Source: Parahoeflea alexandrii (GTDB lineage Bacteria > Pseudomonadota > Alphaproteobacteria > Rhizobiales > Rhizobiaceae). From it: a stretch of 64,000 nucleotides of DNA. Below the pieces are notes generated by a model, which did no database searches, was not told where the DNA came from, and worked only from the letters and a program-made list of their open reading frames with translations. Made by a program: the position numbers and the translations under genes. The stretch is from NCBI RefSeq assembly GCF_027214025.1, contig NZ_JAPWHB010000001.1, positions 1,178,001 through 1,242,000 of the forward strand, in the 5' to 3' direction. The first letter of the stretch is position 1, and every line of letters starts with the position of its first letter. Shown piece by piece: positions 15,921 to 47,230 of this stretch.

Positions 15921-15959
15921 ATCGACTATCCTTTCCCCTGTTTCGGCGTGGTGGAAGGC

Positions 15960-16271: not shown

Positions 16272-16294
16272 GCCCTCCTGCTGTTTGTTTCAGA

Positions 16295-30171: not shown

Positions 30172-30378
30172 GTGTCGCAGCGTAATATTGCCTAATTCGA
30201 TCTTTTGCTGAATTGCTCCGCCTCAAGCTGATTTTGCGAGCTTCCCTCCGCGCATATTTGAGGCATCGCCATATTTCGTGGAAAGCTTTCAATCCTTTCC
30301 TTGGCCGGCATTTTAATGTTCGTTAATACACGCTGGAACAAACGTTCGCAGATATCGGTACAACAGGAGAGGTCAGGT

Positions 30379-31395
30379 TTGGAAACTCAACTGTCTACGC
30401 ACGAGGACATGGAGGTTGCCCGCCTAGCGCAGCTTTTCCGAAATTGCACTCAATCGTACAAATTTCTGTTTTTTCGGGCTATACTTGCCCGGTTAATCGA
30501 AAAGGATTGCGCTCGTATCGCTTTCAGCGAGATCCTAGCCGAGATGCTAATTTCCGCGTGGTGGCCCGCAGTGGTTGGACGCTTGGCGATTGGGAATGCC
30601 GCCGGCAACGACACCTTAACGAAGCTTGTGGCCTCGATTGGTGATGTGGTGAACGAGAAGCTCAGACAACGGGAAGCACTCGCTCTTGCGCTGAAGGCGG
30701 TAAAGACTGAAAGAGCCAGAGGCTGCCTGCGTTATGTTCCCGAGGCATTGCTCAGCCCGTGGAAGACGAGCGCGCAGTTTAATCCCCTCTACAAAGTTCA
30801 TGATGATGGGATCGAACTTTATCCTGAATGGAAGGAATATCTAAAGGTCAATATACCAATAGTAAGAGGATGGGCAGACGGCGCCTGGCTTGCGTGGGTT
30901 CAGGCTCGAAACCCGAATATACCTGTGACACTTGAGAAGCTGGCGCCGCCGGCGAGACATAACAATCTCGCTCGCGAAAAGACGTTTTTCCTGCAGAATA
31001 TGTTAGGCAAGCCAATCGTCTGCATCTACACCCAGCAAAATGTCTGTGAGTCCGATCTGACACTCGATCACTTTTTGCCTCGAAGTTTTGTAGGCCACGA
31101 TCGGATCTGGAATCTTGCGCCTGTTTCGAAAAAGGTCAACTTTTCGAAAGGGGCTCGCCTCCCGCTAGACGGACATCTTGATGAGCTGATTAAGCTACAC
31201 CATCATGTCGTAACCGCAGCTCTGGGGCACGCGAGGAAATCTGAAAGCACGTTCTTGGATCAGTATTGTACGGATCTTCGGTTGTCGCCAGAGCAACTTA
31301 GTGATGAGAGGGCTCTCCGAGAGGCCTACGTGGGAAATGTGTTGCCGATGTTGGCAATAGCTAAGCGAATGGGATTTCCTACTGATTGGCCCTGA
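30379..31395 (+). CDS. HNH endonuclease-like protein
   Basis: A protein of about 338 residues, mostly helical in its first 200 residues, with an HNH-type site toward the C-terminus: VCIYTQQNVCE, then LTLDHFLPRSFVGHDRIWNL, then SKKVNFSKGARLP (His about residue 233, Asn about 244, Asn about 253). The second Cys pair of classic HNH proteins is not evident. The TTG start at 30379 is preceded by AGGAGAGG at good spacing; ATG 30316 is the alternative. It is A+T-rich, follows the IS remnant, and lies on the same strand upstream of the Dnd-like operon. A restriction-type nuclease is the likely role. Confidence 0.7.
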   Translation: METQLSTHEDMEVARLAQLFRNCTQSYKFLFFRAILARLIEKDCARIAFSEILAEMLISAWWPAVVGRLAIGNAAGNDTLTKLVASIGDVVNEKLRQREALALALKAVKTERARGCLRYVPEALLSPWKTSAQFNPLYKVHDDGIELYPEWKEYLKVNIPIVRGWADGAWLAWVQARNPNIPVTLEKLAPPARHNNLAREKTFFLQNMLGKPIVCIYTQQNVCESDLTLDHFLPRSFVGHDRIWNLAPVSKKVNFSKGARLPLDGHLDELIKLHHHVVTAALGHARKSESTFLDQYCTDLRLSPEQLSDERALREAYVGNVLPMLAIAKRMGFPTDWP

Positions 31396-31448: not shown

Positions 31449-32519
31449 CTAAGTTTCGATTCTTCTCAAAATGACACTCATCCATTTTATCTCAGGTCGA
31501 TCAAGGAGATCATCTCTTACGCCTTTCTCCTCCACCTGAAGACCTAACGGCAACGCTATCGTTCGGAGCTCATCTAGGGAGACATTAAACATGGCCCGGT
31601 CAGGATCTGCAGGCCCCAGCCGTAAAGTCAGATATACTTTGCCGGATACCGTCAGCAGAGATTTCAAACGGGCAAGCGCTGCCGGACGATCAGCTGGATG
31701 GATGTGCATCCAAACAGCACTTACAACTATCCAATCGAACCGCTCCGCTTTAATTGCCTTCAGGCCGGGAAGTCTGTCGTCAATCCATATGACACGTGGG
31801 TTCACGTGGATTTTTTGTGCAATGCGCCTGAAAGATTCGGAAGGCTCGGCTGCGATAACGACGTGGCCTTGTTCAGCTATCCACGATGCGTCGCGCCCAG
31901 TCCCCGCCCCCACATCGAGGACACTCAGGGGAGATTTGCCTTTCAGACCATCCACTAGGGCTGGATGCGCAGCCTCGAACGGTACGACTTCATACAGGTC
32001 AGCAAGGTTCTGAGCCTGCTGGTTGTAGAACTCTACCGATGCCCCGCTGATACCGTTTCCGATCCAGCCGGCCTGCTTCGCTGTAATTGCCATCAATATC
32101 ACGCTCGCTAACGCTGCAAGCACTAACATGATTTGGAAGGTTCTTCGAACCAGAAATGGTTTCGTAAACCAACCATCACCGGGGGCGCCCACGAACACAG
32201 ACGGCTCGAAGTTCCGCAGCCAAATGAGGTGACACTCCATGATGTAACGCAGTCGTGTGAGCACGAGGCAGAGACCGAAATTCCCGGCAGCCGCCAAGCC
32301 TAAAAGACAAAACTGAAATAGCGGGGCGGAGTCCGCCATCGAAACCCCGAACCAAAGCCCCCCGGTTAGCGTCATCGCCAGCAAGGGAATTTGCCACATG
32401 AGCTGATTTAGCGCTCGGAAGTTCTCGGAATTCTGGCCGTAGGCCTCGAGCATCCTCTGTTCGATGCGGTCGTCGGCTCGGACCGGAACATCCTGATTGG
32501 TAGTCATCGACCCTCTCAT
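31449..32519 (-). CDS. Membrane-anchored SAM-dependent methyltransferase
   Basis: A 356-residue protein. The first half has membrane helices near residues 42-60, 66-88 and 128-150. The second half is a class I methyltransferase with motif I VLDVGAGTGRDASW near residue 201 and IVVSAVWMHI (motif IV region) near residue 264. Methyl acceptor unknown; the fold is of the type 11/12 small-molecule group rather than a DNA methylase, as no NPPY/DPPY motif is present. Starts at ATG 32519 or 32507. It is transcribed away from the downstream operon, and the intergenic 32520-32679 must hold divergent promoters. Confidence 0.7.
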   Translation of the reverse strand: MRGSMTTNQDVPVRADDRIEQRMLEAYGQNSENFRALNQLMWQIPLLAMTLTGGLWFGVSMADSAPLFQFCLLGLAAAGNFGLCLVLTRLRYIMECHLIWLRNFEPSVFVGAPGDGWFTKPFLVRRTFQIMLVLAALASVILMAITAKQAGWIGNGISGASVEFYNQQAQNLADLYEVVPFEAAHPALVDGLKGKSPLSVLDVGAGTGRDASWIAEQGHVVIAAEPSESFRRIAQKIHVNPRVIWIDDRLPGLKAIKAERFDWIVVSAVWMHIHPADRPAALARLKSLLTVSGKVYLTLRLGPADPDRAMFNVSLDELRTIALPLGLQVEEKGVRDDLLDRPEIKWMSVILRRIET

Positions 32520-32679
32520 CTGCGCACTTTGGTAAGCGGCGTATTTTACTCCAGTATTAGGCTATTGCCTGAGCACTGAGGTTGCACTATTGGCTGAAAA
32601 AGTGGATGACTGCAACGGAGGGTTAGTAAAGTCGATATAGTGTGCGCAATGAAATAATCGACGGGGCGAAAAAACATAA

Positions 32680-33162
32680 ATGAGAGCGTTTTTAGAGGGT
32701 ATGGCGGGTCTGGAGTTGCGTTTGATAACCTGCCAGCCGATCCCTGCTCGGTGGGCAACTTTCGATAGCGCGAATGCGTTAACATGGGAAGAAATACCCT
32801 TTCGGCCCCACTCGATTACACAAGTCCCACAAGTCAAAGGGGTTTATTGCTTCGTTGTCGGGCCCCCTCCATTTGCGCTCCCGTCCGTTCGATACCCCAT
32901 GTATGTAGGGCGCACCAAGCGTCCCCTGCGTGAGCGGTTTCAGGAGTATCTGAGGGAGCAGCACAGCCCGACCGGCCGGTACCACGTCAAGAAATTCCTC
33001 AACGTGTTTGAGGGCGAGCTTACGTTCTTGTGCGCCCAATTTGCCGGCACCTATCAAGAACTCGTGCGAGCAGAGCGGGACGTCATGGACGCAATGATGC
33101 CAGCATACAGTGATTCGGGCTATAGCGCTGAAGTGCGCGCAGGACGAGGAGCTTGGCAGTAA
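32680..33162 (+). CDS. GIY-YIG nuclease-like protein, first gene of the Dnd-like operon
   Basis: A 160-residue protein with a GIY-YIG-like core: KGVYCFVVG (first strand, GVY), RYPMYVGRTKRPLRERFQEY (YVG plus the following conserved Arg), and a downstream ELVRAERDVMDAMMPAY with the glutamate at the metal-site position and the Pro of the usual ending. The N-terminal 50 residues are extra. Its stop codon overlaps the ATG of the DndB-like gene (TAATG), so they are co-translated. It could be a nuclease that acts on unmodified or modified DNA. ATG 32701 is an alternative start. Confidence 0.65.
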   Translation: MRAFLEGMAGLELRLITCQPIPARWATFDSANALTWEEIPFRPHSITQVPQVKGVYCFVVGPPPFALPSVRYPMYVGRTKRPLRERFQEYLREQHSPTGRYHVKKFLNVFEGELTFLCAQFAGTYQELVRAERDVMDAMMPAYSDSGYSAEVRAGRGAWQ

Positions 33163-34433
33163 TGGCCGGAAAACTATTTATGCCCGCCATGCAGGGCACC
33201 TTCGGCGACTGGAATTATTACTCGGCCTTGGTCACCTTGGATGATATCGTCGAGAGGGTCGGCTATGCGAGTCTTCTGACTGAAAACTCCAGCTTGGGCG
33301 AACAGATCCAGCGCCGCCTGGACGATCGATCGCGAGCCTCCGACATTGCGGACTACCTCATTCGCAACCAGGATCGTTTCTTCAACTCGCTGGTGGTCGG
33401 GGTCCTTGGCGGTCAGCCTGAATGGCACCCGTTTTCGCTTTCCAGTCAGGTCGCTGAGCATGAACTCGGAGACGTTACGGAACGCGATCAGGATCTAGTC
33501 GGTTACCTTCAGCTCAGCGGCGAGGAAACGCTGTTCGCGCTGGATGGGCAGCACCGCCTCGCCGGTATCCGACAGGCGCTCGCTGAACAGCCCGACCTTG
33601 GTCAGGAAAAGCTCTCTCTTATATTTGTTCCGCATTTGGATACCCCTGCAGGCAAGATCCGGACGCGAAGTCTGTTCATTTCGCTGAACAAAAAAGCTGT
33701 CCCCGTGAACCGCAAAGACATCATCATCCTCGACGAGGTGGATATCGCAGCCATTATCACAAGGCGCCTGGTCGACTCCCACCCACATTTCAATGGCGGT
33801 GTCATCGATGTTACTCGGTTTGGCAATGCCATCCCGTCGTCGTCGCCTTTTTGGACGACGATCGGCACCTTTTATGACGTGAACGATGTCATCATTCGTC
33901 GCTTTGTCGAAGGCAGGGATGAAGGCGAGCTCGAGGATGCGGGAAAGGTGCGGCTTTCAGAAGACCGGCTGGTGTTCTATCAGGCCGGCGTCCTTGATTT
34001 CTACGATCGGCTGGCGCGGATGGAGCCCTTGCTGTCAACTGTGTTTGGTGAGGATGTCGAGCAGAAGGCAACGGCGCTTCGCCACGCGCGAACAGCCGAA
34101 AACCCCCGCTTACTCTCAAGACCCGTCGGATTGAAAATATTTGTCAACGCGGCGGCCGAACTAAGAGAGGGACGCACAGTCGCACAGACCTTCAAAGAAC
34201 TGAGAAGAGTGCCGCTTTCCTTGGATCGACCTCCTTTCAACGACATTATCTGGGACGCAGACCGCGCTCGGATGGTAGTATCCGGACAATCTCTGTCCAG
34301 CCGGCTTTTGCTCTACATGCTCGGGCTCACGAATTTCGGTGAGCGTTTGCGGCAGAGTTATGCCGATCATCTCGGAGTGGAACCAGAGACGGTTCGGCCA
34401 CCGCGCCGACTGCCTGCGGTCAGAGCCCGGTAG
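33162..34433 (+). CDS. DGQHR-domain protein, DndB-like
   Basis: A 423-residue protein with the diagnostic DGQHR motif at residues 128-132 (ETLFALDGQHRLAGI), followed by RSLFISLNKKAVPVNRKD near residue 170, the pattern of the DGQHR/DndB family. In known phosphorothioation systems DndB is a DNA-binding regulator that limits dnd transcription. ATG 33162 overlaps the preceding stop, and GAGGAG lies upstream. The gene precedes dndC, the canonical order, with only a small DNA-binding gene in between. Confidence 0.85.
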   Translation: MAGKLFMPAMQGTFGDWNYYSALVTLDDIVERVGYASLLTENSSLGEQIQRRLDDRSRASDIADYLIRNQDRFFNSLVVGVLGGQPEWHPFSLSSQVAEHELGDVTERDQDLVGYLQLSGEETLFALDGQHRLAGIRQALAEQPDLGQEKLSLIFVPHLDTPAGKIRTRSLFISLNKKAVPVNRKDIIILDEVDIAAIITRRLVDSHPHFNGGVIDVTRFGNAIPSSSPFWTTIGTFYDVNDVIIRRFVEGRDEGELEDAGKVRLSEDRLVFYQAGVLDFYDRLARMEPLLSTVFGEDVEQKATALRHARTAENPRLLSRPVGLKIFVNAAAELREGRTVAQTFKELRRVPLSLDRPPFNDIIWDADRARMVVSGQSLSSRLLLYMLGLTNFGERLRQSYADHLGVEPETVRPPRRLPAVRAR

Positions 34434-34525
34434 ACCACGCAAGGATAGTGGACAACCGTAACTGCCAATTGTTATTTGCAGTTTTGTGGTGCATGTTGGT
34501 GCGAACGATTTGCACAGGTAGTGGA

Positions 34526-34735
34526 ATGGGACGACCGAAAGGCAATCGCTATCCAGTTCGGCTTTCCGTCAGCGTCAACGCCGCGGACCATGCTGCTCTG
34601 TCAAAACTGGCGGCGGATCTTAATTTGTCAGCTGCTTGGCTTGTTCGCCGGGCCGTAACGGAGTTCGTGGAGCGGAATTGCCGAAATGAGCAGGCTGAGC
34701 TCCTGTTGGTCAAGGCCGCCGCGAAGAAAGAGTAA
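34526..34735 (+). CDS. Small ribbon-helix-helix DNA-binding protein
   Basis: A 69-residue protein: MGRPKGNRYPVRLSVSVNAA forms the ribbon strand, then DHAALSKLAADLNLSAAWLV and RRAVTEFVERN form the two helices, typical of CopG/Arc-type regulators. ATG 34526 is chosen because the fold begins there; the frame remains open to 34448. It sits between dndB-like and dndC with a four-base gap to dndC, so it is a candidate repressor of the operon. Such a gene is not part of standard dnd clusters. Confidence 0.7.
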   Translation: MGRPKGNRYPVRLSVSVNAADHAALSKLAADLNLSAAWLVRRAVTEFVERNCRNEQAELLLVKAAAKKE

Positions 34736-34739
34736 GTGA

Positions 34740-35879
34740 ATGTTCATGCTTCCCCAATCCAACGATTTTCCCGATACGATCGATACGATCTGGGCCGACG
34801 TCGTTGAAAACGTGCGCCAAGAGTATCTGTCAGAGCACCAGCGATACCCATGGATTATCGGATTTTCCGGCGGTAAGGATAGCACCGTTGTCACGCACGC
34901 GATCTTCGAGGCCCTGCTTCAGATCGCGCCGATTCGGCGCACTCGGCCGGTTCACATCGTCTCTAACGACACGATGGTCGAGTCCCCGCTTGTCATTGCA
35001 CACCTGAATGCAGTCACCGCAAAAATCGCCGCTGCATCGGAGAGCCTCGGCCTGCCGATTTCCGTTGCGAGGACCCATCCCGATCCTGACAAGACGTTCT
35101 GGGTTCTTCTGATCGGCAAAGGTTATCCGAGCCCCAATATGACAATGCGATGGTGTACCGATCGGTTGAAGATCCAGCCGACGAGCGGGTACATCAAAGA
35201 AAAGGCTTCTGAATCGGGCGCCGCTATCGTTGTGCTGGGTGTGCGCCGGGACGAAAGCCAGTCGCGTCAGCGTTCGATCGACAAGTGGAAGAACCATCGT
35301 GGAGGAAACCTGACGCCGCACGAAAGGTTGCCGGGAGCCCTTATCTATCGCCCGATCGTCGATCTTGCGATCGAGGAAGTCTGGGAAATCTTGGGGACCT
35401 TCCACGCACCATGGGGTGGTGATCACTCGGCGCTGATTAAACTCTATCGCGATTCGGAGGGTGGTGAATGCCCCGTCGTCTTAAGTGCGGATGAGGCCCC
35501 CGGTTGCGGCACCTCAAACAGTCGCTTCGGATGTTGGACCTGCACCGTGGTCGAAAAGGATAAAAGCCTGCAAGGCTTCGTTGATGCCGGGAAGCATCAC
35601 TTTCAGCCACTGATTGATTTTCGTGACTGGCTCCGTTCCATCCGCAATAAGCCCGAAATGCGACAGGCCATCCGCCGCAATGGCAAACTTACGTTCGATC
35701 CCAATGGAAAACACATTCCCGGTCCGTTTACGATCCAGGCGCGACGCGAAATTCTCACGCGTCTTCTCAAAGTGCAGTCCCAGTTTGGCGACGAACTGAT
35801 CACACAGCCCGAGCTACAGCAGATCCAGAAACTCTGGGCCGATGAACTCCAGTCGCAAGGAGCTATTGCCGGTGTCTGA
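34740..35879 (+). CDS. dndC: DNA phosphorothioation protein DndC (PAPS reductase-like)
   Basis: A 379-residue protein of the DndC family. It has the ATP-pyrophosphatase P-loop GFSGGKDSTVV (residues 41-51) and the Fe-S cysteine group C244, C256, C265, C268 (GCGTSNSRFGCWTCTVVEKDK), both typical. DndC is thought to activate the DNA backbone with ATP and, with its 4Fe-4S cluster, help pass sulfur into DNA. The next gene's start lies inside its 3' end. This is the clearest marker that the operon is of the phosphorothioation type. Confidence 0.92.
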   Translation: MFMLPQSNDFPDTIDTIWADVVENVRQEYLSEHQRYPWIIGFSGGKDSTVVTHAIFEALLQIAPIRRTRPVHIVSNDTMVESPLVIAHLNAVTAKIAAASESLGLPISVARTHPDPDKTFWVLLIGKGYPSPNMTMRWCTDRLKIQPTSGYIKEKASESGAAIVVLGVRRDESQSRQRSIDKWKNHRGGNLTPHERLPGALIYRPIVDLAIEEVWEILGTFHAPWGGDHSALIKLYRDSEGGECPVVLSADEAPGCGTSNSRFGCWTCTVVEKDKSLQGFVDAGKHHFQPLIDFRDWLRSIRNKPEMRQAIRRNGKLTFDPNGKHIPGPFTIQARREILTRLLKVQSQFGDELITQPELQQIQKLWADELQSQGAIAGV

Positions 35880-36087
35880 TTTTTACAATGAAGACAGCAT
35901 AGTCGGCGATTTGCCGCTCTGGTCGGACAAGGAAGCCATGGCGGTTCTCGACAAAATTGCTGAGGCTCATAGTGTCCCGATCGATGTTTTAACTGAATTG
36001 GTCGTCCTTCAACGTACGCGCCAACATCAGGAACGCGCCGCAGGGATTTATCAAAGGATAGAAGAAATCCTGGGGCGAATGGACTGA
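35872..36087 (+). CDS. Small DNA-modification-system-associated protein
   Basis: A 71-residue acidic protein (SDFYNEDSIVGDLPLWSDKE, then LVVLQRTRQHQERAAGIYQR). Similar short proteins are encoded between dndC-like and dndD-like genes of DNA modification loci; function unknown. The GTG at 35872 is preceded by AAGGAG at 35857-35862 (nine bases), making it a better start than the upstream ATG at 35842. It overlaps dndC by eight bases and lies two bases before dndD. Confidence 0.75.
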   Translation: MSDFYNEDSIVGDLPLWSDKEAMAVLDKIAEAHSVPIDVLTELVVLQRTRQHQERAAGIYQRIEEILGRMD

Positions 36088-36089
36088 TA

Positions 36090-38159
36090 ATGTGGATTTC
36101 CAAGATAGAGCTCGTATGTTTCAAATCGTACCAACGGCAAGAGTTTGAGTTTCCCGAGCCGAGCGAGGGTCGCAACGTCGTCCTCATCGGTGGCATGAAT
36201 GGATATGGCAAGACTTCCATTTTGGAAGCGCTTTATCTTTGCCTTTATGGGAAAGACGCAATGTCACACCTTGCGCGTGCCGGCCTCAAGACGGACGATT
36301 CGCGTGGATATCCATCTTTTCTTGAGAAAGCTTTCAACGGCGAAGCCCTCCGCGAAGGCCGAGACACGATGATCGTCAAGGTCGTGATACAAAAGAACAA
36401 GACGCGTGCCGTCGAGATCAGCCGCAAATGGTATTTTCGATCGAACGGCGCTTGGATCGACGAAGAAACTACCTTCAGGGAAATCGTTCGTGGGATTCCA
36501 GAGTTGCCGCGGTCAGATGGCAAAGGCGGATTTCATTTATCGAACGTCCTTGACGACGCTTTCATTCCTGCCCATATCGCTCCCTTTTTCTTCTTCGACG
36601 GTGAAGAAGTTAAAAAGCTGGCGGATCAGAACCGTATCGAACAGGTCAAAGTGGGCTTGGAGGGCTTGCTCGGGGTCGTGCTGTTGCGATCACTGGCAGA
36701 GCGCATGCGGAATTTTGAGCGCTCGAAGCGCGAAGGGGTTGCAAATGTGGACGAGGACCGCCTGGCGCGGCTCTTTCAAGAGCTGTCGGAAACCGAAAGA
36801 GTGAGTTCCGATATCCAGCTGCGGCTCAGTGAGATCAAGGAGCGCCGCATCGCACTGAGTGGTGAGTTTGATTCGCTAATGGAGCGCATCACAACGGCGG
36901 GAGGCGGTGGTGGTGATACGGCCACCTACAAGGATTTGATTGAGGAGCGCGAGCAGGTCAAAAACCGGTTGCGCGACATTCAGCGCCGCCTCGAGGAGAT
37001 CCTCACTTCACGCCTTCCGTTTCATTTTGTATCGCGCGCTGTCAAGGATGTTTTCCGTGAGCAGCTCCTCGGAGAGACCCGACTTCATCAGTGGGATTCC
37101 GAAAAGCGCGCCCTTGAACCAAGGCAGCGCGAATTCGAAGCTGCGTTTGCCGGACAGTATGACCCTCCCCTTGATCCTCCGCTCACAGACCAGCAGTTGG
37201 AAGCGATCCGGACACGGATCAATGCCGCCTGGGCGGCCCTGTTCTATCCGCCTCCGGAGGACTGTGCCAAAGTTGTCGAACACGACTATCTTTCGCCCGA
37301 AGAAAGAAATCGGACGTTGGAAGCGCTCGAAACCGTATCGCTGGGACAACAGGAAATCCAAGATGTCTTGCGGGCACAGTCCGAACACCAAGACCGCATC
37401 GAGGACCTCAGCCGGAAAATCTCCCGCCTTGAGGGGATAGACCGGGATGGTACGCTTTCAGGGCTGACCGACGAACTAAAGCGTGTGCAATCGCAACTTG
37501 GCGAACTTGAAGAAGAAGCGCGTGGTGAGGATCGACGTCTTGTGGCCCTTGAGGCACAGGGATCGTCGCAACGGGCCGAATATGAACGAGAGCGTCGTAA
37601 GCTCGACGAGTCATCCCCTGCGAGAGCCGTGATCGAACGGTCGGAACGGGTCCGCAAGGTCATTGACGAAGTAATCCCGTCCCTCTTCCCGCTCAAGGTT
37701 AAAGAACTCGCGGCAAGCATGACCCAGGTTTACAAGCAGCTTGCCCATAAGGGCCAAGTTGCGAAGATCGAGATAAGGGACGACGGAACAACTGTCATCC
37801 TGAGCAAGTCTGGCAAGGCTCTGACTTTCGACCGGTCAGCAGGCGAAAACCAGATATTTGCCACTGCGCTCATTGCTGGATTGGCGAAAGTTTCAGGAGT
37901 AAAAGCACCGCTTGTCGTAGATACGCCGCTCGGCCGTCTCGACAGCCGTCACCGTGACAACATTTTGCGTTTCTGGACATCTGACAAGAACCGCCAAGTT
38001 ATCCTGCTTAGCCAGGACGAAGAAATCGACGCTGCCTTGCACACCAGGATCGGCGGGAGCATTGCGAAGACGTATCTTCTAACCCATGTGGACGTAGGTG
38101 ACGGAATTGGTCGGACGACGGCAAAGGCCGATCAATATTTTGCGGAGGAGAAGGCGTGA
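36090..38159 (+). CDS. dndD: DNA phosphorothioation protein DndD (SMC-like ATPase)
   Basis: A 689-residue SMC/RecN-like ATPase. Walker A is GGMNGYGKTSILEAL (residues 34-48); the ABC signature SAGENQIFATALI lies near residue 588, and Walker B VVDTPLGRLDSRHRDNIL contains D611. Residues about 215-540 are rich in coiled-coil heptads; no CxxC zinc hook is visible at the centre. DndD hydrolyses ATP and is proposed to alter or nick DNA structure during sulfur insertion. It overlaps the next gene by four bases (GTGA). Confidence 0.92.
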   Translation: MWISKIELVCFKSYQRQEFEFPEPSEGRNVVLIGGMNGYGKTSILEALYLCLYGKDAMSHLARAGLKTDDSRGYPSFLEKAFNGEALREGRDTMIVKVVIQKNKTRAVEISRKWYFRSNGAWIDEETTFREIVRGIPELPRSDGKGGFHLSNVLDDAFIPAHIAPFFFFDGEEVKKLADQNRIEQVKVGLEGLLGVVLLRSLAERMRNFERSKREGVANVDEDRLARLFQELSETERVSSDIQLRLSEIKERRIALSGEFDSLMERITTAGGGGGDTATYKDLIEEREQVKNRLRDIQRRLEEILTSRLPFHFVSRAVKDVFREQLLGETRLHQWDSEKRALEPRQREFEAAFAGQYDPPLDPPLTDQQLEAIRTRINAAWAALFYPPPEDCAKVVEHDYLSPEERNRTLEALETVSLGQQEIQDVLRAQSEHQDRIEDLSRKISRLEGIDRDGTLSGLTDELKRVQSQLGELEEEARGEDRRLVALEAQGSSQRAEYERERRKLDESSPARAVIERSERVRKVIDEVIPSLFPLKVKELAASMTQVYKQLAHKGQVAKIEIRDDGTTVILSKSGKALTFDRSAGENQIFATALIAGLAKVSGVKAPLVVDTPLGRLDSRHRDNILRFWTSDKNRQVILLSQDEEIDAALHTRIGGSIAKTYLLTHVDVGDGIGRTTAKADQYFAEEKA

Positions 38160-39682
38160 GCACACTCAGCCTGCAGCAAGTGATGTCATCACGATTTCGC
38201 ACCTCTGCGGTTGCTGATGGCCAAACGAAGTACCTGATGGAAGCACTTGGTCTGTCAACAAAAGCGAATGTGGCGCGTCTTGCAATTGGCCGCTCACTCG
38301 GACTTGCGTCACTGCCAGACGAAAATCTCGACGCCAAAGGCCTTGAGATACCGGCCTCGTCGCTCTTTAGCCAAGAGGATGTAGCGCTCTGGATTGGCTT
38401 TTTCGTATCACATGCGCAGTTGTTTAACGGCCTCAAAATCGATTCGATGGAAGCTTTGCGCAACCAGTTGCGCGCGCACTGGCACAGGGGAGCTAAACTC
38501 CTGATCGACGACTGGCGGGATAGTGCCGAGAACTACGATACATTCGTCACGACCTTAGCCCGTAGGCGCGCCGAACTCCCCGAGATTGCATCCGACGCCG
38601 CGCGTTCGAGCGAAGCGGCACAGGTTTTTCAACCGATAGAGGACATGTCATCCACCCTGACGAAGGCGCTGAAGGAGATCGGTGTCTCGGCCGAGGTTCG
38701 CAGTGTCATGCATGGCCCCCGCTTGTCGAGGTACCGCGTTACATTGAAAGACGTCAACCAGTTTGATCGCCTGCGGCGCGGTGCCGACAGTCTGGCGCTC
38801 GTACTCGGACTACAAAATCAGCGACCGGTCATCGCCACCAGTGATGTGGCAAAGACCGTAACGATCGACATCGCGCGTCCAAAGGACACATGGACCGTCG
38901 CCGGGCCACGTGAATTTCTCGACGCGGTCGCAAAACAGCCACAGGACGGCCTCTATGTTTGCCCCGGTGTGGACGTCACCGGGAACCCCGTCGCTTTTAA
39001 CCTTCAGGCAGTGCCGCACCTGTTGGTTGGCGGTTCAACCGGTCAGGGAAAGAGCGTCTGCGTCCATGCGCTGCTCACCTCGCTGATCGAAAAGTATACA
39101 CCTTCCTACCTCAAGCTTGCGCTGATCGATCCAAAGCGTGTCGAGTTCAACAAATACACAAAGAGCAAATTCCTCTGGAATGAACAGATTGCCGCTGGCG
39201 AACAGGCGTCAGCGGATCTGCTCGATAATCTCATTGAGGAAATGGATGGCCGGTACAAGCGGTTCGAAACGCTGGGTGTCGATAACATAAAGGACGCAAA
39301 TGGCAGAGGAACGCAACTCCCCTACATCGTCGCCTGTGTTGATGAACTGGCTGAGCTTGTCCTAGTAGATCGGTCGGCAGAAACGAAGATCGCCAGACTT
39401 GCCCAAAAAGCTCGCGCCGCTGGCATCCACTTGATCCTAGCAACGCAGCGTCCGGACGCCAAGACATTCAGTGGTCTCATTCGATCGAACATTCCTGGAC
39501 GCATAGCTTTAACTGTACAAAAGGCGACCGAATCGCAAATTATACTTGACGATGTCGGCGCAGAGGATTTGCTTGGCGCTGGTGACATGATCATCAAGTT
39601 GCCGGCGAGCGAGCCCATCAGGGCCCACGGATATTTTCTATCGACCGCCGACGTCAACACGATCGTGAGCAGGACGAGATGA
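38156..39682 (+). CDS. DndE-like domain fused to an FtsK/HerA-type DNA translocase
   Basis: A 508-residue protein starting with GTG 38156. The first ~90 residues (FRTSAVADGQTKYLMEALGL, then RLAIGRSLGLASLP and GLEIPASSLFSQED) resemble the small DndE protein, which binds nicked DNA. The C-terminal half is an FtsK/SpoIIIE motor: Walker A GGSTGQGKS (K299), KLALIDPKRVEFN near residue 320, Walker B IVACVDELAEL near residue 396, and HLILATQRPDAKTFSGLIRSNIPGRIALTV. There is no membrane segment or gamma domain. It replaces a free dndE in the operon. The FtsK call is firm, the DndE call is by pattern and needs a profile search. Confidence 0.8.
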   Translation: MSTLSLQQVMSSRFRTSAVADGQTKYLMEALGLSTKANVARLAIGRSLGLASLPDENLDAKGLEIPASSLFSQEDVALWIGFFVSHAQLFNGLKIDSMEALRNQLRAHWHRGAKLLIDDWRDSAENYDTFVTTLARRRAELPEIASDAARSSEAAQVFQPIEDMSSTLTKALKEIGVSAEVRSVMHGPRLSRYRVTLKDVNQFDRLRRGADSLALVLGLQNQRPVIATSDVAKTVTIDIARPKDTWTVAGPREFLDAVAKQPQDGLYVCPGVDVTGNPVAFNLQAVPHLLVGGSTGQGKSVCVHALLTSLIEKYTPSYLKLALIDPKRVEFNKYTKSKFLWNEQIAAGEQASADLLDNLIEEMDGRYKRFETLGVDNIKDANGRGTQLPYIVACVDELAELVLVDRSAETKIARLAQKARAAGIHLILATQRPDAKTFSGLIRSNIPGRIALTVQKATESQIILDDVGAEDLLGAGDMIIKLPASEPIRAHGYFLSTADVNTIVSRTR

Positions 39683-39909
39683 ACGTCCAGATTCTAGACA
39701 CCCGCGGCCTCAAGTGCCCTCTCCCCGTGATCAGGGCCCGAAAGGCCATAAAAACCATTGGAAACGGTCAGCTGCTTAGGGTCGAGTGCACCGACCCGTT
39801 GGCTGAAATCGATATCCCACACATGGTCAACACGGACGGGCACGACCTGATTGGAAAGGGAAAAGACGTTGAGGTGCTCTGGTATCTTATCAAGATCGTA
39901 AAAAGATAG
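39679..39909 (+). CDS. TusA-family sulfur carrier, last gene of the Dnd-like operon
   Basis: A 76-residue TusA/SirA-family protein: ILDTRGLKCPLPVIRARKAI carries the CPxP motif with the persulfide cysteine C13, and VECTDPLAEIDIPHMV is typical of the second half. TusA proteins receive sulfane sulfur from a cysteine desulfurase and relay it. ATGA overlap with the translocase stop shows it belongs to the operon. No cysteine desulfurase (DndA) is encoded in the cluster, so TusA may take sulfur from housekeeping IscS/SufS. Confidence 0.88.
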   Translation: MNVQILDTRGLKCPLPVIRARKAIKTIGNGQLLRVECTDPLAEIDIPHMVNTDGHDLIGKGKDVEVLWYLIKIVKR

Positions 39910-40604
39910 GCATTGGGAAAGGTAAAAGGTTCGGGGGGAGATGCATATCTAAAGCGTGAGTTCGGCCATCGATTATTTTCACCGATGGGACATTTCACAT
40001 TTGGGTCTATCTACTGGTCGGCGTCATTTTTTTGGCGGCTTCGGGTTTTGGTATGAGGCTTTGCCGCTCATGCTGGAGCTTCTCGGAGGCACTAGTGATG
40101 GCGTATTCACTGCCATGTTGACGTTATTTCCCGCCCTCGCGGGATCCTCCGCCTTGCAGCTGCCTTTTGCCGATGGCGAAAAACCTCTCAGGGCTTTCTC
40201 TGTCTTTTACAGCTCGTCCTCGTCGCGCTTGCTGTACGGCTCGATCTTGCATGACCGTCATCGGAATGGCAAGCCTTCACTGTAGCAAGCTTTGCGAGCA
40301 TACTGGCAATCTTGATGTGGTGGCTGACAAGCGGCGCTGATCCCGCCTTCGATGACGCCGTCGATGATCGAAAAACGCTAGGTCCCGATCCAACGGTGAA
40401 ACCCCAGAGCGATCTTGGTGGATATGGGGTCTGATATGACGCATTTTCAGTCATTGTGTTCTCCGCGAATTTGGTTCGCGTCGGGTCTGAAGCATCGGTC
40501 ATATTGTGAGCCCTTTGGGTCTCGACCCTCGTGTCTATCGCTCTCGATCCGCTGACGAATGAATTTTGACGATTCACGAGTGGCCGCGGCAGCCAACCTA
40601 CGTC
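39910..40604. other. Region without intact gene; possible decayed membrane-protein gene
   Basis: About 700 bases with no convincing intact gene. Plus-strand pieces look like membrane-protein fragments broken by stops or frame changes: VYLLVGVIFLAASGFGMRL near 40005, then ILRLAAAF and GFLCLLQLVLVALAVRLDLA near 40144-40251 ended by TGA, then in the same frame SSEWQAFTVASFASILAILM to a stop near 40438. No terminator was recognised after the tusA-like gene. Confidence 0.35.
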
Positions 40605-41834
40605 TTACAGGTTCAACCGCAAGGCTTTCCGCGATTCGGTGTGCTCAAATGCATCGGCATAAGTTCGCAGGTCACCGGATGAGGCGCCTTCATCGCGCAG
40701 GGCCTGCTTCCAGTTGCTCGCGATCGTCTCGGCCATCTGAAATGCTTGCTGCCTGGCGTCGGCCGGCGTCAGTTCGAAGAACCCGCACGCCTCCAGCGCG
40801 ATGTCGAGGGAGGCATCGAACGAGCCGCCTTCGATAATGCCGGTTTCCAGTACTCTGTGGCGTGACGGAGAGGGGTTAATGTCGAAGGCCGGTGACAACC
40901 TCCATCGATCGCCACCGGCATAGATGAAACCATGGTTCTTCAGATGGTCGTCCGAGTTGGACACGAGGATGGTGAAGACGATCCGCCGCCAGAGTTCGTG
41001 CAGATCGTAGACGGGCTTGCTGGAAATCTGCCGGATGACGTCGGCGATATCGGTGTAGAACCCGCCTTCGTCGCTGTCCCAGTCGAGCGCGGTGCGGGCC
41101 GAAATATAGGGGATGCGTGTATTGCCGCGGCGATCGAACCTTTTAATGAGCGCGATCGGGCTGTCGCTGTCGCGCAGTTCGAGCTTCGCCTCGGCGGCCC
41201 GCAATCCGCATCGGGCCGCGAGTTTCAACGCGGCGACCTCGACTCGCTCGACAGGTCTGGTGTCCTGGGCGGAGGTGAACTTGGCGATCCAGAGATGTCC
41301 GTCGCCCTCGACATTGGCCTTCGGACGGGCGCCGCCAAGCGACCCGGCCACGCCGGCCAGGTCGCGCGCTTCCGCCTCCGCGCCGCCGGGATCCCGCTCG
41401 AACCGCTGCGCAAGCGCACGCAATCGTTCCAGTTCGACCAGTCGCGGGATGGGCGGCGTCAGATCCGACAGCGGCTCCATGTCTTCCCCGAGAAATCGCA
41501 ACGCGCCTTGCCGTGTTCGATCATCGGACAACACCAGATAATCGAACTCGCTGAGACCACCGCCCAGGACCCTGGTCATCAGCGCGCGACCCCAGGAATC
41601 CGGGGCGGCATCGGCAAAGCATCCCGGCAACGCCGAGCGCCTGTCGTTGCGGCCCGCGCTGTAATGGCTCCCCTCGCGCAGAGGCAAGCCGGGAGAGAGA
41701 GCGAAACGGTCGGGGGCCGCCAGCCACTCGGCGGCGTATTCGAATTGCGAATGCTGGCGCCGCCCGTCGCTCTCGAAGCGCAGACGGCCAACGACACGCT
41801 TGCCCTCGCCGAGGGCGACGATCGCTTCGGGCAT
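40605..41834 (-). CDS. hipA: HipA-type toxin kinase
   Basis: A 409-residue Ser/Thr kinase-fold toxin. The HipA N-lobe begins MPEAIVALGEGKRVVGRLRF; PGCFADAAPDSWGRALM, GSLGGARPKANV (ATP-binding loop) and LWIAKFTS follow. The catalytic segment NSDDHLKNHGFIYA lies near residue 300 and the metal-binding LSPAFDINPSP near residue 320. HipA kinases phosphorylate aminoacyl-tRNA synthetases and cause growth arrest. It overlaps the hipB stop by one base, and the antitoxin is translated first. Confidence 0.9.
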   Translation of the reverse strand: MPEAIVALGEGKRVVGRLRFESDGRRQHSQFEYAAEWLAAPDRFALSPGLPLREGSHYSAGRNDRRSALPGCFADAAPDSWGRALMTRVLGGGLSEFDYLVLSDDRTRQGALRFLGEDMEPLSDLTPPIPRLVELERLRALAQRFERDPGGAEAEARDLAGVAGSLGGARPKANVEGDGHLWIAKFTSAQDTRPVERVEVAALKLAARCGLRAAEAKLELRDSDSPIALIKRFDRRGNTRIPYISARTALDWDSDEGGFYTDIADVIRQISSKPVYDLHELWRRIVFTILVSNSDDHLKNHGFIYAGGDRWRLSPAFDINPSPSRHRVLETGIIEGGSFDASLDIALEACGFFELTPADARQQAFQMAETIASNWKQALRDEGASSGDLRTYADAFEHTESRKALRLNL

Positions 41835-42217
41835 CAGAAACCGACCCCTTCATCATCGTCGCTGTTCGGAAGAGCGGTTTCGTCCTTTGCGGACCCTGTC
41901 GGCCTGGAGCCTCGTTTCCGATCGATCCGCTTGGGGAGTGCTTGTCTGTCGAGAAGCAGTCCGGTGTCGTCGGATCCCGGATCGAGGAAGTCCGAAATCC
42001 GCCCGATCTCGCCAAGTACGAGGCAGGCCATCGCCAGCGTGCCGATGCTGACGCCATCGTCCCCCTTCTCGAGGCGGCTGATGGTGCTCTCGGACACGCC
42101 GACCCGCTCGGCGAATCCCTGCACGGAGATGCGCCGCTTCCGACGCGCCGTCTTGATATTCGCGCCCAGAGCCTCAAGGGCTCGCCGCGCGTTCAAGGAA
42201 CTTACCTTAACCACCAT
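41834..42217 (-). CDS. hipB: HipB-type Xre antitoxin
   Basis: A 127-residue protein with an Xre helix-turn-helix (about residues 15-70: LGANIKTARRKRRISVQGFA, RVGVSESTISRLEKGD) and an acidic, disordered-looking C-terminal tail ending DDDEGVGF. HipB proteins neutralise HipA and repress their own operon. A 7-bp inverted repeat lies 16 bases upstream of the start and is a plausible operator. Confidence 0.88.
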   Translation of the reverse strand: MVVKVSSLNARRALEALGANIKTARRKRRISVQGFAERVGVSESTISRLEKGDDGVSIGTLAMACLVLGEIGRISDFLDPGSDDTGLLLDRQALPKRIDRKRGSRPTGSAKDETALPNSDDDEGVGF

Positions 42218-42232
42218 ATCTGATGTTCATTC

Positions 42233-42253
42233 CATATTTAGCCTTCAAATATG
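42233..42253 (-). promoter_or_regulatory. Inverted repeat upstream of hipBA, candidate operator
   Basis: CATATTT (42233-42239) and AAATATG (42247-42253) form a perfect 7-bp inverted repeat with a 7-base spacer, immediately upstream of hipB in an A+T-rich patch. Its place and symmetry fit a HipB-type dimer binding site overlapping the promoter. Confidence 0.5.
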
Positions 42254-42604
42254 ACTGTTAGCAGGTTGTGAATACGACTGCAACCGGCGGCCATCAACGA
42301 GCATGCAACATAGCTTGAAAGGACCCCTCTCCGAAAAATGTAAACGGTTTCGGGCAGGCCTCTTGCGGCGTCTGAAACGGTCACGAGCCACATTGAGCCA
42401 TCACAGCCCCAATGGAGGGCGCACAAGCCGGATTTCGGCCAATTGTAAGTCAAAAACCGCTGATTGGAACTGTACGGATCGCGATCTGGCAAGATGGGAA
42501 GGGGAAAGCCTTCCCCTGCGGCCGAGGCCCGTGGTCTCGGCCGACCCCTTCTGCGGGGACACCCCGCAACGCCCCGAGAGTGAGAGTGCGGACCGGTTGG
42601 CAGT
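42254..42604. other. Intergenic region between hipB and ardC
   Basis: About 350 bases with no credible plus-strand gene; the long minus-strand frame here runs antisense through ardC and has no family features. A promoter for the ardC transcript must lie here, but I could not place it. Confidence 0.4.
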
Positions 42605-42657
42605 GACGGGTTGGAAGCCGAGGGAGAGACCCTTGGCGCCCGTCGCGGAGAACCGCG
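42605..42657 (+). promoter_or_regulatory. Structured 5' leader of ardC (radC-motif-like RNA)
   Basis: Outer stem GACGGG (42605-42610) with CCCGTC (42639-42644), inner stem GCCGAGGG (42617-42624) with CCCTTGGC (42630-42637) around loop AGAGA. A second small hairpin, CGCGG-AGAA-CCGCG (42644-42657), contains the GGAG ribosome site and abuts the ATG. The same architecture occurs before parB and radC in this window. Position and gene association match what is described for the radC RNA motif, but identity needs a covariance-model search. Confidence 0.7.
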
Positions 42658-43617
42658 ATGTCCAGACACAAGCGAAATACAGGCGCCAGGCGCGACCGGA
42701 CCAGTCTCTATTCCGAGATCACCGACAAGATCATCGCCGAGCTTGAAGCCGGCAGCGTGCCCTGGGTCCAGCCCTGGGGCACAGCGGCGGCGAAGGCGCC
42801 GGTCGCCATGCCGAAGAATGCTTCGACCGGCCGGACCTATTCCGGAATCAACGTGCTGCTGCTCTGGGGCACGGTGATTGAGCGCGGCTTTTCTGGCCAG
42901 AGCTGGCTCACCTTCCGTCAGGCGCTTTCGCTTGGCGGCAATGTGCGCAAGGGCGAGCGCGGCACCACCGTCGTCTATGCCGACCGCTTCGTGCCGGAAG
43001 ACGAGAAGCGTCGTGCGCGAGAGACCGGTGAGGACGCCCAGGCGATCCCGTTCCTGAAGCGCTTCACTGTCTTCAACACCGACCAGTGCGAAAACCTGCC
43101 CGAAGACGTGGCGACGGCCGCGCCGCCGGTGCCGACGGGTTTGATAGAACCGCGTGTCGAGGCCCTCATCAAGGCGACCGGCATCAATTTCCGCATCGGC
43201 GGAAATCGGGCCTTCTATGTGCCGGCTCACGACTATGTGCAGGTGCCGCCGCCGCAGGCCTATTTCGAGCCGATCGACTGGCACCGTACGGCCCTGCATG
43301 AACTTGGCCACGCCAGCGGCCATACGTCCCGGCTGAACCGCGATATGACCGGCTCCTTTGGATCGAAGAGATATGCCTTCGAGGAGTTGATCGCGGAAAT
43401 CAATGCCGCCTTCTGTTGCGCCTCGCTCGGCATCACCCCTACTGTCCGGCACGCCGACTATATCGGCTCCTGGCTCGAGGTGCTGCGCGAGGACAACCGC
43501 GCAATCGTCCGTGCCGCCAGTCAGGCGAGCAAGGCTGCAGACTGGCTTCTGTCCTTCCTTCCGGATGCCGACAGCTCCACCGTCGGCGCCGACTTGATCG
43601 GCAGGAGGGCGGCATGA
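42658..43617 (+). CDS. ardC: ArdC-family antirestriction / ssDNA-binding zincin protein
   Basis: A 319-residue protein. The N-terminal ArdC domain (IIAELEAGSVPWVQPWG, then GRTYSGINVLLLW and FRQALSLGGNVRKGE) binds single-stranded DNA in plasmid ArdC. A zincin metalloprotease-like C-terminal domain has HELGHASGH near residue 217 (HExxH) and a downstream AFEELIAEI glutamate. ArdC protects incoming conjugative DNA from restriction. Its stop overlaps the start of the DUF2958 gene by four bases. Confidence 0.9.
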   Translation: MSRHKRNTGARRDRTSLYSEITDKIIAELEAGSVPWVQPWGTAAAKAPVAMPKNASTGRTYSGINVLLLWGTVIERGFSGQSWLTFRQALSLGGNVRKGERGTTVVYADRFVPEDEKRRARETGEDAQAIPFLKRFTVFNTDQCENLPEDVATAAPPVPTGLIEPRVEALIKATGINFRIGGNRAFYVPAHDYVQVPPPQAYFEPIDWHRTALHELGHASGHTSRLNRDMTGSFGSKRYAFEELIAEINAAFCCASLGITPTVRHADYIGSWLEVLREDNRAIVRAASQASKAADWLLSFLPDADSSTVGADLIGRRAA

Positions 43618-44018
43618 ACCTCCTGACACCCGATCTGCGCCTTCGCCTGCTCGCCAACGGTCGTCGGAGCGACGTCGACAATGTGCCGGTCGTGAAATTC
43701 TTCAATCCGCTCGGCGAAGGCGTCTGGCTCGCGACCGATCTGGATCCGGACGGCGATACCCTGTTCGGCCTTGCCGATCTCGGCTGTCCGGAACTTGGCA
43801 GTTTCTCGCTGGAGGAAATGGAGTCCATCCAGTTGCCCTTCGGTATGCGGATCGAGCGGGACCTGCTCTTTACCGGGGATTTCCCGATCTCGGTCTGGGC
43901 TGAGGCGGCAAGAGAGGCTGACAGCATACGTGCGGTCGAGCGCATTCTTTACGCCCGCGCCCGCGGCGATGCCGCGCTCACCCGGAAATCCGCCGACACG
44001 GAAACCCGGAAACCCTGA
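43614..44018 (+). CDS. DUF2958 domain protein
   Basis: A 134-residue protein with the DUF2958 pattern: VPVVKFFNPLGEGVWLATDL, LFGLADLGCPELGSFSL and a C-terminal FPISVWAEAAREA. The function of the family is unknown; it is regularly encoded next to ArdC, RadC and strawberry-notch genes on Rhizobiales mobile elements. The ATG overlaps the ardC stop by four bases, with GGCAGGAGGG upstream. Confidence 0.85.
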   Translation: MNLLTPDLRLRLLANGRRSDVDNVPVVKFFNPLGEGVWLATDLDPDGDTLFGLADLGCPELGSFSLEEMESIQLPFGMRIERDLLFTGDFPISVWAEAAREADSIRAVERILYARARGDAALTRKSADTETRKP

Positions 44019-44086
44019 TTTCCGGCTCTCCGGCTTTGCGATCCTGCGCCGCTCTCTCAAAGGACGAGGGCGGCGCCTTGCCTCGT

Positions 44087-44130
44087 GACGGGTTTAAAGC
44101 TTCGGCATCGGGCCTGCTGCCCGTCGGGAG
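44087..44130 (+). promoter_or_regulatory. Structured 5' leader of radC (radC-motif-like RNA)
   Basis: The outer stem GACGGG (44087-44092) and CCCGTC (44120-44125) are identical to those before ardC and parB, again directly followed by a ribosome site (GGGAG) ahead of the ATG. The inner arm has diverged and pairs less clearly. Confidence 0.6.
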
Positions 44131-44138
44131 ACGTGATC

Positions 44139-44627
44139 ATGACCCGACATCAGAAGACATTTGCTATGGAACCTCAATCCGCGCCGCTGTCGGCTGAGGA
44201 ACAAGTCGTCATCTATGAGGCGCGCCAGATCCTGCTGCGTCACCTCAATCAGAACCCGGTCCTGTCATCCTGGCAGGCGGTGCTGGATTATTGCGCGCTG
44301 ACCATTCGCGGCGAAGTGGAGCGGTTTCATGTCCTCTATCTCGATCGGAAGAACCGTCTCGTGTCGGATGAGTGCCTCTCCATCGGGACTGTCGATCACG
44401 TGCCGGTCTATCCCCGGGAAGTTCTCAAACGTGGTCTCGAGCTTAACGCGACTGCGCTGATCCTCGTGCACAACCATCCTTCCGGTGATCCTGAACCGTC
44501 GCGAGCCGACATATCAATGACGAAGGAAATTCAGAAAGGCTGCACGGTTCTGGGTCTGACGCTGCATGACCACATCATCGTCGGCATCGGCCAGGAGGTC
44601 AGTCTGCGCGCTCGAGGCGAAATCTGA
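44139..44627 (+). CDS. radC: RadC-family JAB-domain protein
   Basis: A 162-residue RadC-like protein of the MPN/JAB1 fold. The metal site is intact: glutamate in GEVERFHVLYLD, then HNHPSGDPEPSRADISMT (HxHPSGxxxPSxxD). It lacks the N-terminal helix-hairpin-helix of chromosomal RadC, as is common for plasmid and ICE forms. Its role in mobile elements is not settled (DNA repair or anti-defence). ATG 44139 is supported by GGGAG eight bases upstream. Confidence 0.9.
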   Translation: MTRHQKTFAMEPQSAPLSAEEQVVIYEARQILLRHLNQNPVLSSWQAVLDYCALTIRGEVERFHVLYLDRKNRLVSDECLSIGTVDHVPVYPREVLKRGLELNATALILVHNHPSGDPEPSRADISMTKEIQKGCTVLGLTLHDHIIVGIGQEVSLRARGEI

Positions 44628-44750
44628 ATGCCTGTCGGATAATCTGGCGGGCTCGGGTGTATCCGCGCGCGACTTCCCGGAATGTTGGCTTCCAGTCACC
44701 GAAAGCCAACCCCGCGGTCCGGAGAGTTAGAGAAGGGATGGGGTTTTCGT

Positions 44751-44796
44751 GACGGGTTGGAAGTCGAGAGAGAGGCTCTCGGCGCCCGTCGTGGAG
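44751..44796 (+). promoter_or_regulatory. Structured 5' leader of the parB-like gene
   Basis: Outer stem GACGGG (44751-44756) with CCCGTC (44785-44790); inner stem GTCGAGAG (44763-44770) with CTCTCGGC (44776-44783), loop AGAGG; then ribosome site GTGGAG. Compared with the ardC leader, a G-C pair has become A-T and a G-T pair G-C, i.e. changes on both sides that keep pairing. Confidence 0.7.
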
Positions 44797-44805
44797 TACA
44801 TCATC

Positions 44806-46905: not shown

Positions 46906-46946
46906 TCAGACGCGGGGCGGTCCCGCGCCGCCCCGTGTCCTACACC

Positions 46947-47135
46947 ATGAACTCGACAACGCCCGGTCTCCGCACCGGGCGTTTTTCGTGTCCGGAGTGT
47001 GTCGACGTCGCGACGGACACAGCGCGCGACGTCATCGGCGCCGTCGGTCGCGACGGCGAGGCCTTCGTCTTCACACCCTTCTGCCACCTCGCCGAGGGCA
47101 ATCCCTACGAGGCCTATGTGCCGCCGGAGCCGTGA
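46947..47135 (+). CDS. Small hypothetical protein with a CPEC motif
   Basis: A 62-residue frame between parB-like and the strawberry-notch leader (FSCPECVDVATDTARDVIGA, FVFTPFCHLAEGNPYEAYVP). It has a CxxC pair and a third Cys. It may start at GTG 46935. No family recognised; the reading is supported mainly by its fit between neighbours and its protein-like composition. Confidence 0.4.
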   Translation: MNSTTPGLRTGRFSCPECVDVATDTARDVIGAVGRDGEAFVFTPFCHLAEGNPYEAYVPPEP

Positions 47136-47155
47136 GAGGGAGAGGATGGCCAGGG

Positions 47156-47205: not shown

Positions 47206-47230
47206 TTCCCGCTCTCCCGAGGTCTCCTCC

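Follow-up and report, generated by a model that had tools for sequence, protein, structure and literature searches.

A probable DNA-phosphorothioation operon of Parahoeflea alexandrii with a split DndC, a DndE fused to an FtsK motor and its own TusA-type sulfur carrier

What is encoded by the eight same-strand genes at positions 32680–39909 of a 64,000-nt stretch of Parahoeflea alexandrii DNA (contig NZ_JAPWHB010000001.1, positions 1,178,001–1,242,000; hereafter the window)? The original prediction offered two answers, namely a variant DNA sulfur modification system with its own sulfur relay and perhaps its own effector, or a new chemistry built on DndC and DndD. We conclude that the operon probably specifies a DNA-phosphorothioation (PT) system, itself probably mobile, in which DndC is split, DndE is motorised and sulfur delivery has a dedicated carrier. 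Judged by its genes, the variant system is well supported: a DndC with its PP-loop and five cysteines, a DndD and a DndE are all present. No support was found for a new chemistry. Gene content, homologies, the identity of a docking domain, site conservation and the exchange of cassettes were read from sequence and structure comparison. The features are as follows.

32680–33162, plus strand: GIY-YIG nuclease-like protein, partner of DndB
33153–34433, plus strand: DGQHR/DndB-family protein of the GIY-partner subfamily (PF14072, 95.6 bits, cutoff 29.1; DGQHR model TIGR03187, 94.8 bits, cutoff 58.85)
34481–34502, plus strand: predicted ribbon-helix-helix (RHH) operator, GTTTTGTGGTGCA then a second TGGTGC, the repeats lying 10 bp apart
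34526–34735, plus strand: RHH (CopG-type) regulator of 69 aa (RHH_1, 29.1 bits, cutoff 20.5)
34740–35879, plus strand: DndC catalytic core without the C-terminal docking domain (TIGR03183, 359.8 bits, cutoff 290.4)
35872–36087, plus strand: small protein (Sp-DndD) of 71 aa, the predicted DndD-docking subunit (PF20306, 52.5 bits, cutoff 27.2)
36090–38159, plus strand: DndD, a Rad50/SMC-like ABC ATPase (TIGR03185, 261.3 bits, cutoff 245.85)
38156–39682, plus strand: DndE (residues 13–117) fused to FtsK alpha and motor domains (Pfam)
39679–39909, plus strand: TusA-type sulfur carrier with a CPLP motif and Cys13 (PF01206, 63 bits, cutoff 28.6)
31449–32519, minus strand: class I S-adenosylmethionine-dependent methyltransferase, accessory (Methyltransf_25, 44.6 bits)
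39983–40425, plus strand: broken remnant of a gene for a DndB partner with four transmembrane segments, its pieces in different frames (tblastn)

The eight genes are intact, all open frames running without internal stops, and mostly coupled. DndC overlaps the small protein by 8 nt, DndD overlaps DndE/FtsK by 4 nt and DndE/FtsK overlaps TusA by 4 nt (ATGA), with 4 nt between RHH and DndC and 2 nt between the small protein and DndD. The GIY-YIG/DndB overlap is 10 nt for a TTG start of DndB and 1 nt for a start at ATG 33162, and 92 nt separate DndB from the RHH start at ATG 34526. That ATG is most likely the true start of the RHH gene (69 aa), matching the start of its five relatives, and GTG 35872 is most likely that of the small protein (71 aa), following the annotation in relatives. 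Seven of the family labels assigned earlier lie above Pfam or NCBIfam cutoffs; the eighth, GIY-YIG, has no Pfam match in the window protein, but a comparison of folds backs it and one homolog narrowly passes the Pfam cutoff. The operon bounds given earlier enclose the eight genes and leave out the methyltransferase and broken genes.

DndC carries SGGKDS at residue 43, so that the PP-loop is kept, and Cys139, Cys244, Cys256, Cys265 and Cys268 are each kept in 56/56 aligned DndCs, E. coli among them; its tail after the core is 0 aa long. Asp611 of DndD is invariant in five aligned sequences. The fusion protein scores 29.1 bits for FtsK_alpha (cutoff 22.9) and 141.5 bits for FtsK (cutoff 24), and its predicted structure (mean predicted local distance difference test score 82) matches the E. 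coli FtsK motor 6t8b with an E-value of 2.1e-28. Among 29 homologs, Pfam recognised DndE in 27 (E 0.01 or better), FtsK_alpha in 26 and FtsK in all 29. Two scores of the window protein weigh against its DndE label: the Pfam domain PF08870 is barely over its cutoff (25.4 versus 25.0 bits), and the NCBIfam DndE equivalog TIGR03184 is under it (21.3 versus 71.85). Sequence searches of the PDB found no relative of DndC, nor of the DndE part alone.

The spread of this core was followed with a profile of four close DndDs against a genome contig collection, from which the best 80 of at least 348 confirmed stretches were taken; locus counts therefore describe a sample only. Core loci, defined by a DndE/FtsK match of at least 400 bits with our own hidden Markov models, number 34, including the window and three plasmid loci. 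Both DndC and the small protein were found in 31/34 by the first models, and the small protein of L084, missed by these, was found by a later one. The order DndC, small protein, DndD, DndE/FtsK recurs in relatives, mostly proteobacteria, and the loci found nearest to that of the window, which lies in a genome of 5.54 Mb, belong to named Hyphomicrobiales. A search of the contig collection with DndE/FtsK alone found no relative. An order-wide search with it gave matches in 382/397 genomes; among the matches listed, those below its own copy span the FtsK part alone and are taken for other FtsK-type proteins. PF20306 was detected in 3/398 genomes of the phylum, the host included, twice over the cutoff and in one of these two inside a long DndC frame, and is rare by this search. 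Of the 18 genomes searched in the genus, the host alone carries a window-type DndD at an E-value of 1e-40. In more remote relatives (L066, L067, L112, L116), the partner fused to DndE is a different HerA/AAA-type ATPase.

Such a core might serve mainly for motor-driven surveillance or killing, DndD and DndE/FtsK scanning the DNA and triggering a DndB-linked nuclease or membrane protein. The DndB partners are indeed nuclease-like or membrane proteins, and the related cores of L112 and L116 lack DndC in the stretches examined. On the other hand, DndC is found in 32/34 core loci, the contigs of the other two (L054, L075) beginning at or inside DndD, and several core loci (for example L046, L050, L055 and L090) show no DndB in the flanks examined. 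We consider surveillance quite unlikely as the main role, and continue with DNA phosphorothioation.

The small protein would explain how DndC could be split. DndC is long in 14 loci, extending 86–114 residues past the core, and 0–21 residues follow the core in the other scored loci; almost every locus with a short DndC has a free small protein according to at least one of the models. With the tails picked by length and not by similarity to the small protein, hhalign matched 58 free small proteins to the 14 DndC tails with 98.0% probability (E 1.5e-13), whereas 30 column shuffles gave at most 0.6% and unrelated families at most 0.3%. The small protein aligns with residues 439–484 of E. coli H240 DndC, numbered from the start codon. 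According to PMC12193691, residues 433–482 of DndC from E. coli B7A meet the globular domain of DndD by AlphaFold3 and conservation, and the triple change L458D/E462A/R471A disrupts the DndC–DndD interaction in a pull-down. These three residues carry the same numbers in H240 and all lie inside the aligned segment; position 458 is Leu in 58/58 free proteins and 14/14 tails (72 sequences). By these alignments, a separate gene here encodes the C-terminal domain of DndC as the small protein, which is predicted to be the subunit that docks DndC on DndD. Two observations count against this assignment. The model of the free proteins matches E. coli DndC directly with a weak 8.6 bits, and the docking link runs through the tail model, which reaches 64.8 bits at the same place. 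Moreover, position 462 is mostly Gln (41/58) and position 471 mostly Ala (44/58) in the free proteins, instead of Glu and Arg, so the docking contact has drifted.

The docking domain lies upstream of 88/96 DndD-type genes (hits at E 0.01 or better with the two models, no more than 1.5 kb away and on the strand of the DndD-type gene, L039 and L102 being one record), as a free protein in 73 cases and fused to DndC in 15. Among the eight genes without it, those of L054, L075, L104 and L115 start within 239 nt of a contig end, and those of L039, L102, L098 and L099 have an extension of 60–74 residues before the DndD match; its weak resemblance to the latter half of the docking domain (best score 12.9 bits, in a three-sequence search) is suggestive only. 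Second, divergent DndD-type genes (L039, L098, L113, L121, L122) also have a free docking protein before them, as do the cores of L112 and L116, which lack DndC in the stretches examined; some of these docking proteins match with E-values of up to 0.005. L039, positions 4721–17321 of an M. amorphae plasmid, encodes DndA-DndC-DndD-DndE and a second module with a docking protein, divergent DndD, DndE/FtsK, AAA ATPase, unknown protein and membrane-type DndB cassette; its first DndD may hold part of the docking domain at the N-terminus.

A different role for the small protein, as a negative regulator or an interactor of a viral trigger and not a docking subunit, has the standing of a published proposal: PMC10853773 calls it mostly disordered and probably regulatory. 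Its homology to the part of DndC that is reported to bind DndD argues otherwise, as does the occurrence of the domain either free or fused to DndC across loci, and we regard such a role as very unlikely. The Pfam entry for PF20306 says no more than that this small protein belongs to certain Dnd systems, and in the open-access literature that we searched no paper was recognised as making the link to docking. The annotation 'DNA modification system-associated small protein' is all that this family carries, and we propose a function for it, that of the docking piece of DndC. From this role follow predictions about the attachment of the sulfur enzyme to the DNA-scanning ATPase and about a way in which the chemistry might be swapped.

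The sulfur relay envisaged by the original prediction was borne out in part: a TusA carrier is present, but TusA is not itself a sulfur source, and no cysteine desulfurase occurs among the locus proteins scanned. Elsewhere, the host genome encodes SufS (539.6 bits, cutoff 475.1) and a NifS/IscS-like desulfurase under its cutoffs, and one of these enzymes is taken as the sulfur source. The window TusA remains under the NCBIfam TusA equivalog cutoff of 78 (50.4 bits), and so does the other TusA of the genome (55.4 bits). Scored only in loci with at least 300 nt downstream of DndE/FtsK (n = 32), TusA follows DndE/FtsK in seven: the window, three Aureimonas, R. phaseoli, M. wenxiniae and Ectorhizobium. 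The seven, from three families, form one clade in a 35-row DndD tree (100/99; one change), and the CPxP motif (C-P-[LI]-P) is intact in all of them. Of the gene order DndC-DndD-FtsK-TusA, which the original prediction proposed to look for in other genomes, the FtsK gene is a conserved neighbour of dndCD because it is the DndE gene; TusA adjoins the core in that one clade.

IscS over the TIGR02006 cutoff was found in 0/5 genomes with an operon TusA versus 23/27 others (Fisher p 6e-4). Several points weigh against a dedicated sulfur route. The contrast rests on one clade, and for three of the 27 (L056, L057 and L060) the locus contig is too short for TusA scoring; the genomes of all three have IscS, and dropping them leaves 20/24. 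Furthermore, 30/32 genomes have TusA genes, and each of the five with a TusA operon holds at least one further copy. We treat the contrast as a lead, not as proof. Neither an operon TusA nor IscS over the cutoff was found for L046, L055, L083 and L090; L083 is binned as Bacteroidia, its locus is near-identical to Rhodocyclaceae (betaproteobacterial) ones (DndD end branch 0.039), and it may be misbinned.

The core could be a real PT system in which TusA is a hitch-hiking paralog, with DndC receiving sulfur directly from SufS or the NifS-like enzyme. PMC3519819 reports that PT formation by a canonical system persists in E. coli lacking a functional tusA, as judged by the Dnd phenotype, and that IscS may act directly on DndC there; TusA is accordingly not generally needed for PT. 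In 25/32 scorable loci the core stands without an adjacent TusA, and the second TusA of the host is 54% identical to the operon copy over 57 aa. Hitch-hiking fits poorly with the ATGA overlap of tusA and dndE/ftsK, with the retention of TusA in all seven members of a clade spanning three families while the surrounding cassettes were exchanged, and with the motif being whole in every operon TusA. We judge it somewhat unlikely and prefer a dedicated carrier.

From these comparisons, we infer the PT chemistry, sulfur route, motor role, repression and nuclease activity of the system as follows. A host cysteine desulfurase (SufS or NifS/IscS-like) would load TusA, which would pass its persulfide to DndC. 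Docked on DndD through the separate small protein, DndC would swap a backbone oxygen for sulfur at sites located by DndD and DndE, and the FtsK motor fused to DndE would carry the complex along the DNA. The RHH protein would repress the block from rhh and dndC to tusA via the tandem repeat ahead of its own gene, and the GIY-YIG/DndB pair would be a separable cassette, probably an effector or surveillance arm. The operon offers a test of the sulfur route to DndC in bacteria without a typical IscS.

An RHH gene precedes dndC in six loci, and the homologs in L036, L037, L043, L044 and L058 begin at the same M[AG]RP. A tandem TGRTGC repeat with 10-bp spacing, TGRTGCANNNTGRTGC, starts 37–41 bp before the RHH ATG in 6/6 loci, once in each. 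It is absent from 29 RHH-less loci (468,272 bp) and from 20 single-base shuffles of the six RHH loci, and it has two matches in the whole host genome, the other lying at G000:C10:603344-603359. Because the pattern was derived from the same six loci, the RHH-less loci and the genome are the real controls, and because L036 and L043 are near-copies, at most five cases are independent. Repeats arranged in tandem at helical spacing are a fitting kind of site for RHH repressors, and the RHH protein is therefore probably an autorepressor. In promoter and terminator scans of positions 32400–34760, the counts differed from those of shuffled sequence by no more than about one standard deviation. DndB, a reported repressor of canonical systems (PMC10853773), here sits in a separate cassette, apart from the RHH-led block. 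The RHH protein and its site suggest a second kind of PT-system regulator, with a named DNA site.

The DndB-like protein fails the DndB equivalog (65.1 versus a cutoff of 328). In its GIY-YIG partner, Y56, Y75, R86 and E132 are invariant in eight sequences, and we take these to be the catalytic Tyr, Tyr, Arg and Glu of the GIY-YIG superfamily; there is no Asn among the invariant columns of these eight, and UvrC has N88. A PDB sequence search with the GIY profile found no relative. DndB partners make up three cassette types, GIY-YIG, a main membrane type and a second membrane type, which sit on three DndB clades (100/100, 89/91 and 100/99, respectively) in a tree where, by a tool warning, long branches meet, where the window row is itself on a long branch, and from which L049, L069 and L095, all under the 90-bit seed limit, are absent. 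Whole DndB cassettes seem to move, because the partner types fall on separate clades. Repeated partner swapping within one DndB lineage was considered and rejected, as the three types track three clades. The effector suggested at the outset is still plausible in the form of the GIY-YIG/DndB pair, a candidate from its sequence and one of the three cassette types, and exchangeable DndB cassettes are candidate effectors in systems without DndFGH.

The broken membrane-partner gene matches in tblastn at 40031–40207 (57.6% to L102) and 40255–40425 (40.4%), in two frames, and no DndB piece was found in 39600–43000 at an E-value of 0.01. The methyltransferase gene at 31449–32519 (METHYLTRANSFERASE) precedes the GIY-YIG gene in the window, and its homologs in L037 and L058, which are on the minus strand, have tusA on one side and DndB on the other. 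These two are the only carriers among the other 33 core loci by our own model, which makes 3/7 TusA-bearing loci in all; the methyltransferase is probably an accessory of the TusA clade. Its N-terminus is hydrophobic, membrane segments being judged by eye, and it also matches PADLOC mad2 (48.2 bits).

The operon has a G+C content of 0.552, versus 0.624 for the remainder compared; a tRNA-Arg gene at 29605 precedes the low-G+C block, and HipA/HipB-like, ArdC-like, ParB-like, strawberry-notch-type helicase and Toprim genes lie 3' of the operon. On account of the low G+C, the upstream tRNA-Arg and the mobile-element-type genes downstream, the operon looks like mobile-element cargo. No direct repeat of the tRNA-Arg gene or other attachment repeat was found in 29.5–47 kb. 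Directly adjoining the operon, a HipA_C/Couple_hipA protein with a helix-turn-helix (HipB-like) partner is encoded at 40605–42217 (minus strand). Positions 42658–56873 encode ArdC-like anti-restriction, ParB-like, strawberry-notch-type helicase and Toprim proteins and a large AAA/SMC-like ATPase, a probable mobile-element backbone. An HNH_4 nuclease-like protein at 30301–31395 (plus strand), between the tRNA-Arg gene and the operon, was left out as a system member since it has no homolog in the other 89 loci searched with our own model.

We tentatively suggest a wider reading, in which Dnd may be a modular platform: a core of DndD with DndE or DndE/FtsK, a small docking domain, exchangeable catalysts, and interchangeable nuclease or membrane effectors in the DndB slot. 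The catalyst in the window would then be the split DndC, supplied with sulfur by a TusA of its own; in L116, the free docking protein, DndD and DndE/HerA would follow an N6-adenine methylase. L116 (Methylotuvimicrobium buryatense, 2937–12522) holds a free docking protein, a DndD, a DndE-HerA fusion and unidentified open reading frames, and its upstream genes encode one protein that combines HSDR_N with an N6-methylase and another whose TaqI_C match is sub-threshold; DndC was not found in the stretch examined with our own model. If the platform reading holds, the operon would be, to our knowledge, the first known DNA-modifying system with a dedicated sulfur-carrier protein.

In canonical Dnd systems, DndE is free and TusA is not known as an operon gene. 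The canonical DndBCDE systems with IscS (E. coli, S. enterica) share with that of the window DndC, DndD, the DGQHR protein and a host-supplied desulfurase, but their DndC is one piece (544 aa in L123) and here it is split. The canonical L123 also has DptF, DptG and DptH. DndA, a free DndE and DndFGH had been declared missing from the window locus, and this agrees with the lack of a desulfurase among its scanned proteins, of a free DndE in the locus and of DptH in the genome: DptH was found in 0/32 genomes including the host, in a search in which no control matched, and a repeat in which the E. coli control matched again found none in the host. DptF and DptG were not among ten window proteins scanned with NCBIfam, the genome not being searched for them. 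PbeABCD, the system of the CxC-ATPase, likewise places a small protein ahead of its ATPase (the PbeB match here is weak, E 0.0082), and PbeC is the best PADLOC model for the window DndD (1078 bits). In contrast to PbeABCD, DndC is present here and the window DndD has no CxC or CxxC motif when read by eye; the HKD nuclease-helicase PbeA is not among 19 window proteins scanned with Pfam, the genome not being searched for it. SspABCD-SspE shares a PP-loop sulfurtransferase (window DndC scores 41.7 bits with the SspD model), and has an ORC/Cdc6-type ATPase and SspB, as given in PMC10853773, where the window has a DndD/DndE core. Also among the closest known systems is the subset of DndE-FtsK/HerA fusions (clade 3 HerA/FtsK) in the same source, the main text of which contains no occurrence of TusA and names no membrane partner of DndB. 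The fused motor was already known; as far as the literature searched goes, the identification of the small protein, the clade with TusA, the site of the RHH protein and the rule for the cassettes appear to be new. These fusions likewise place DndE-FtsK beside a DndD-related ABC ATPase and a small protein, with URI/GIY-YIG nucleases near Dnd genes as in the window. Because a DndE-FtsK fusion next to a DndD-type ATPase has been described there, we regard the core of the P. alexandrii operon as a variant and not as a new kind of system.

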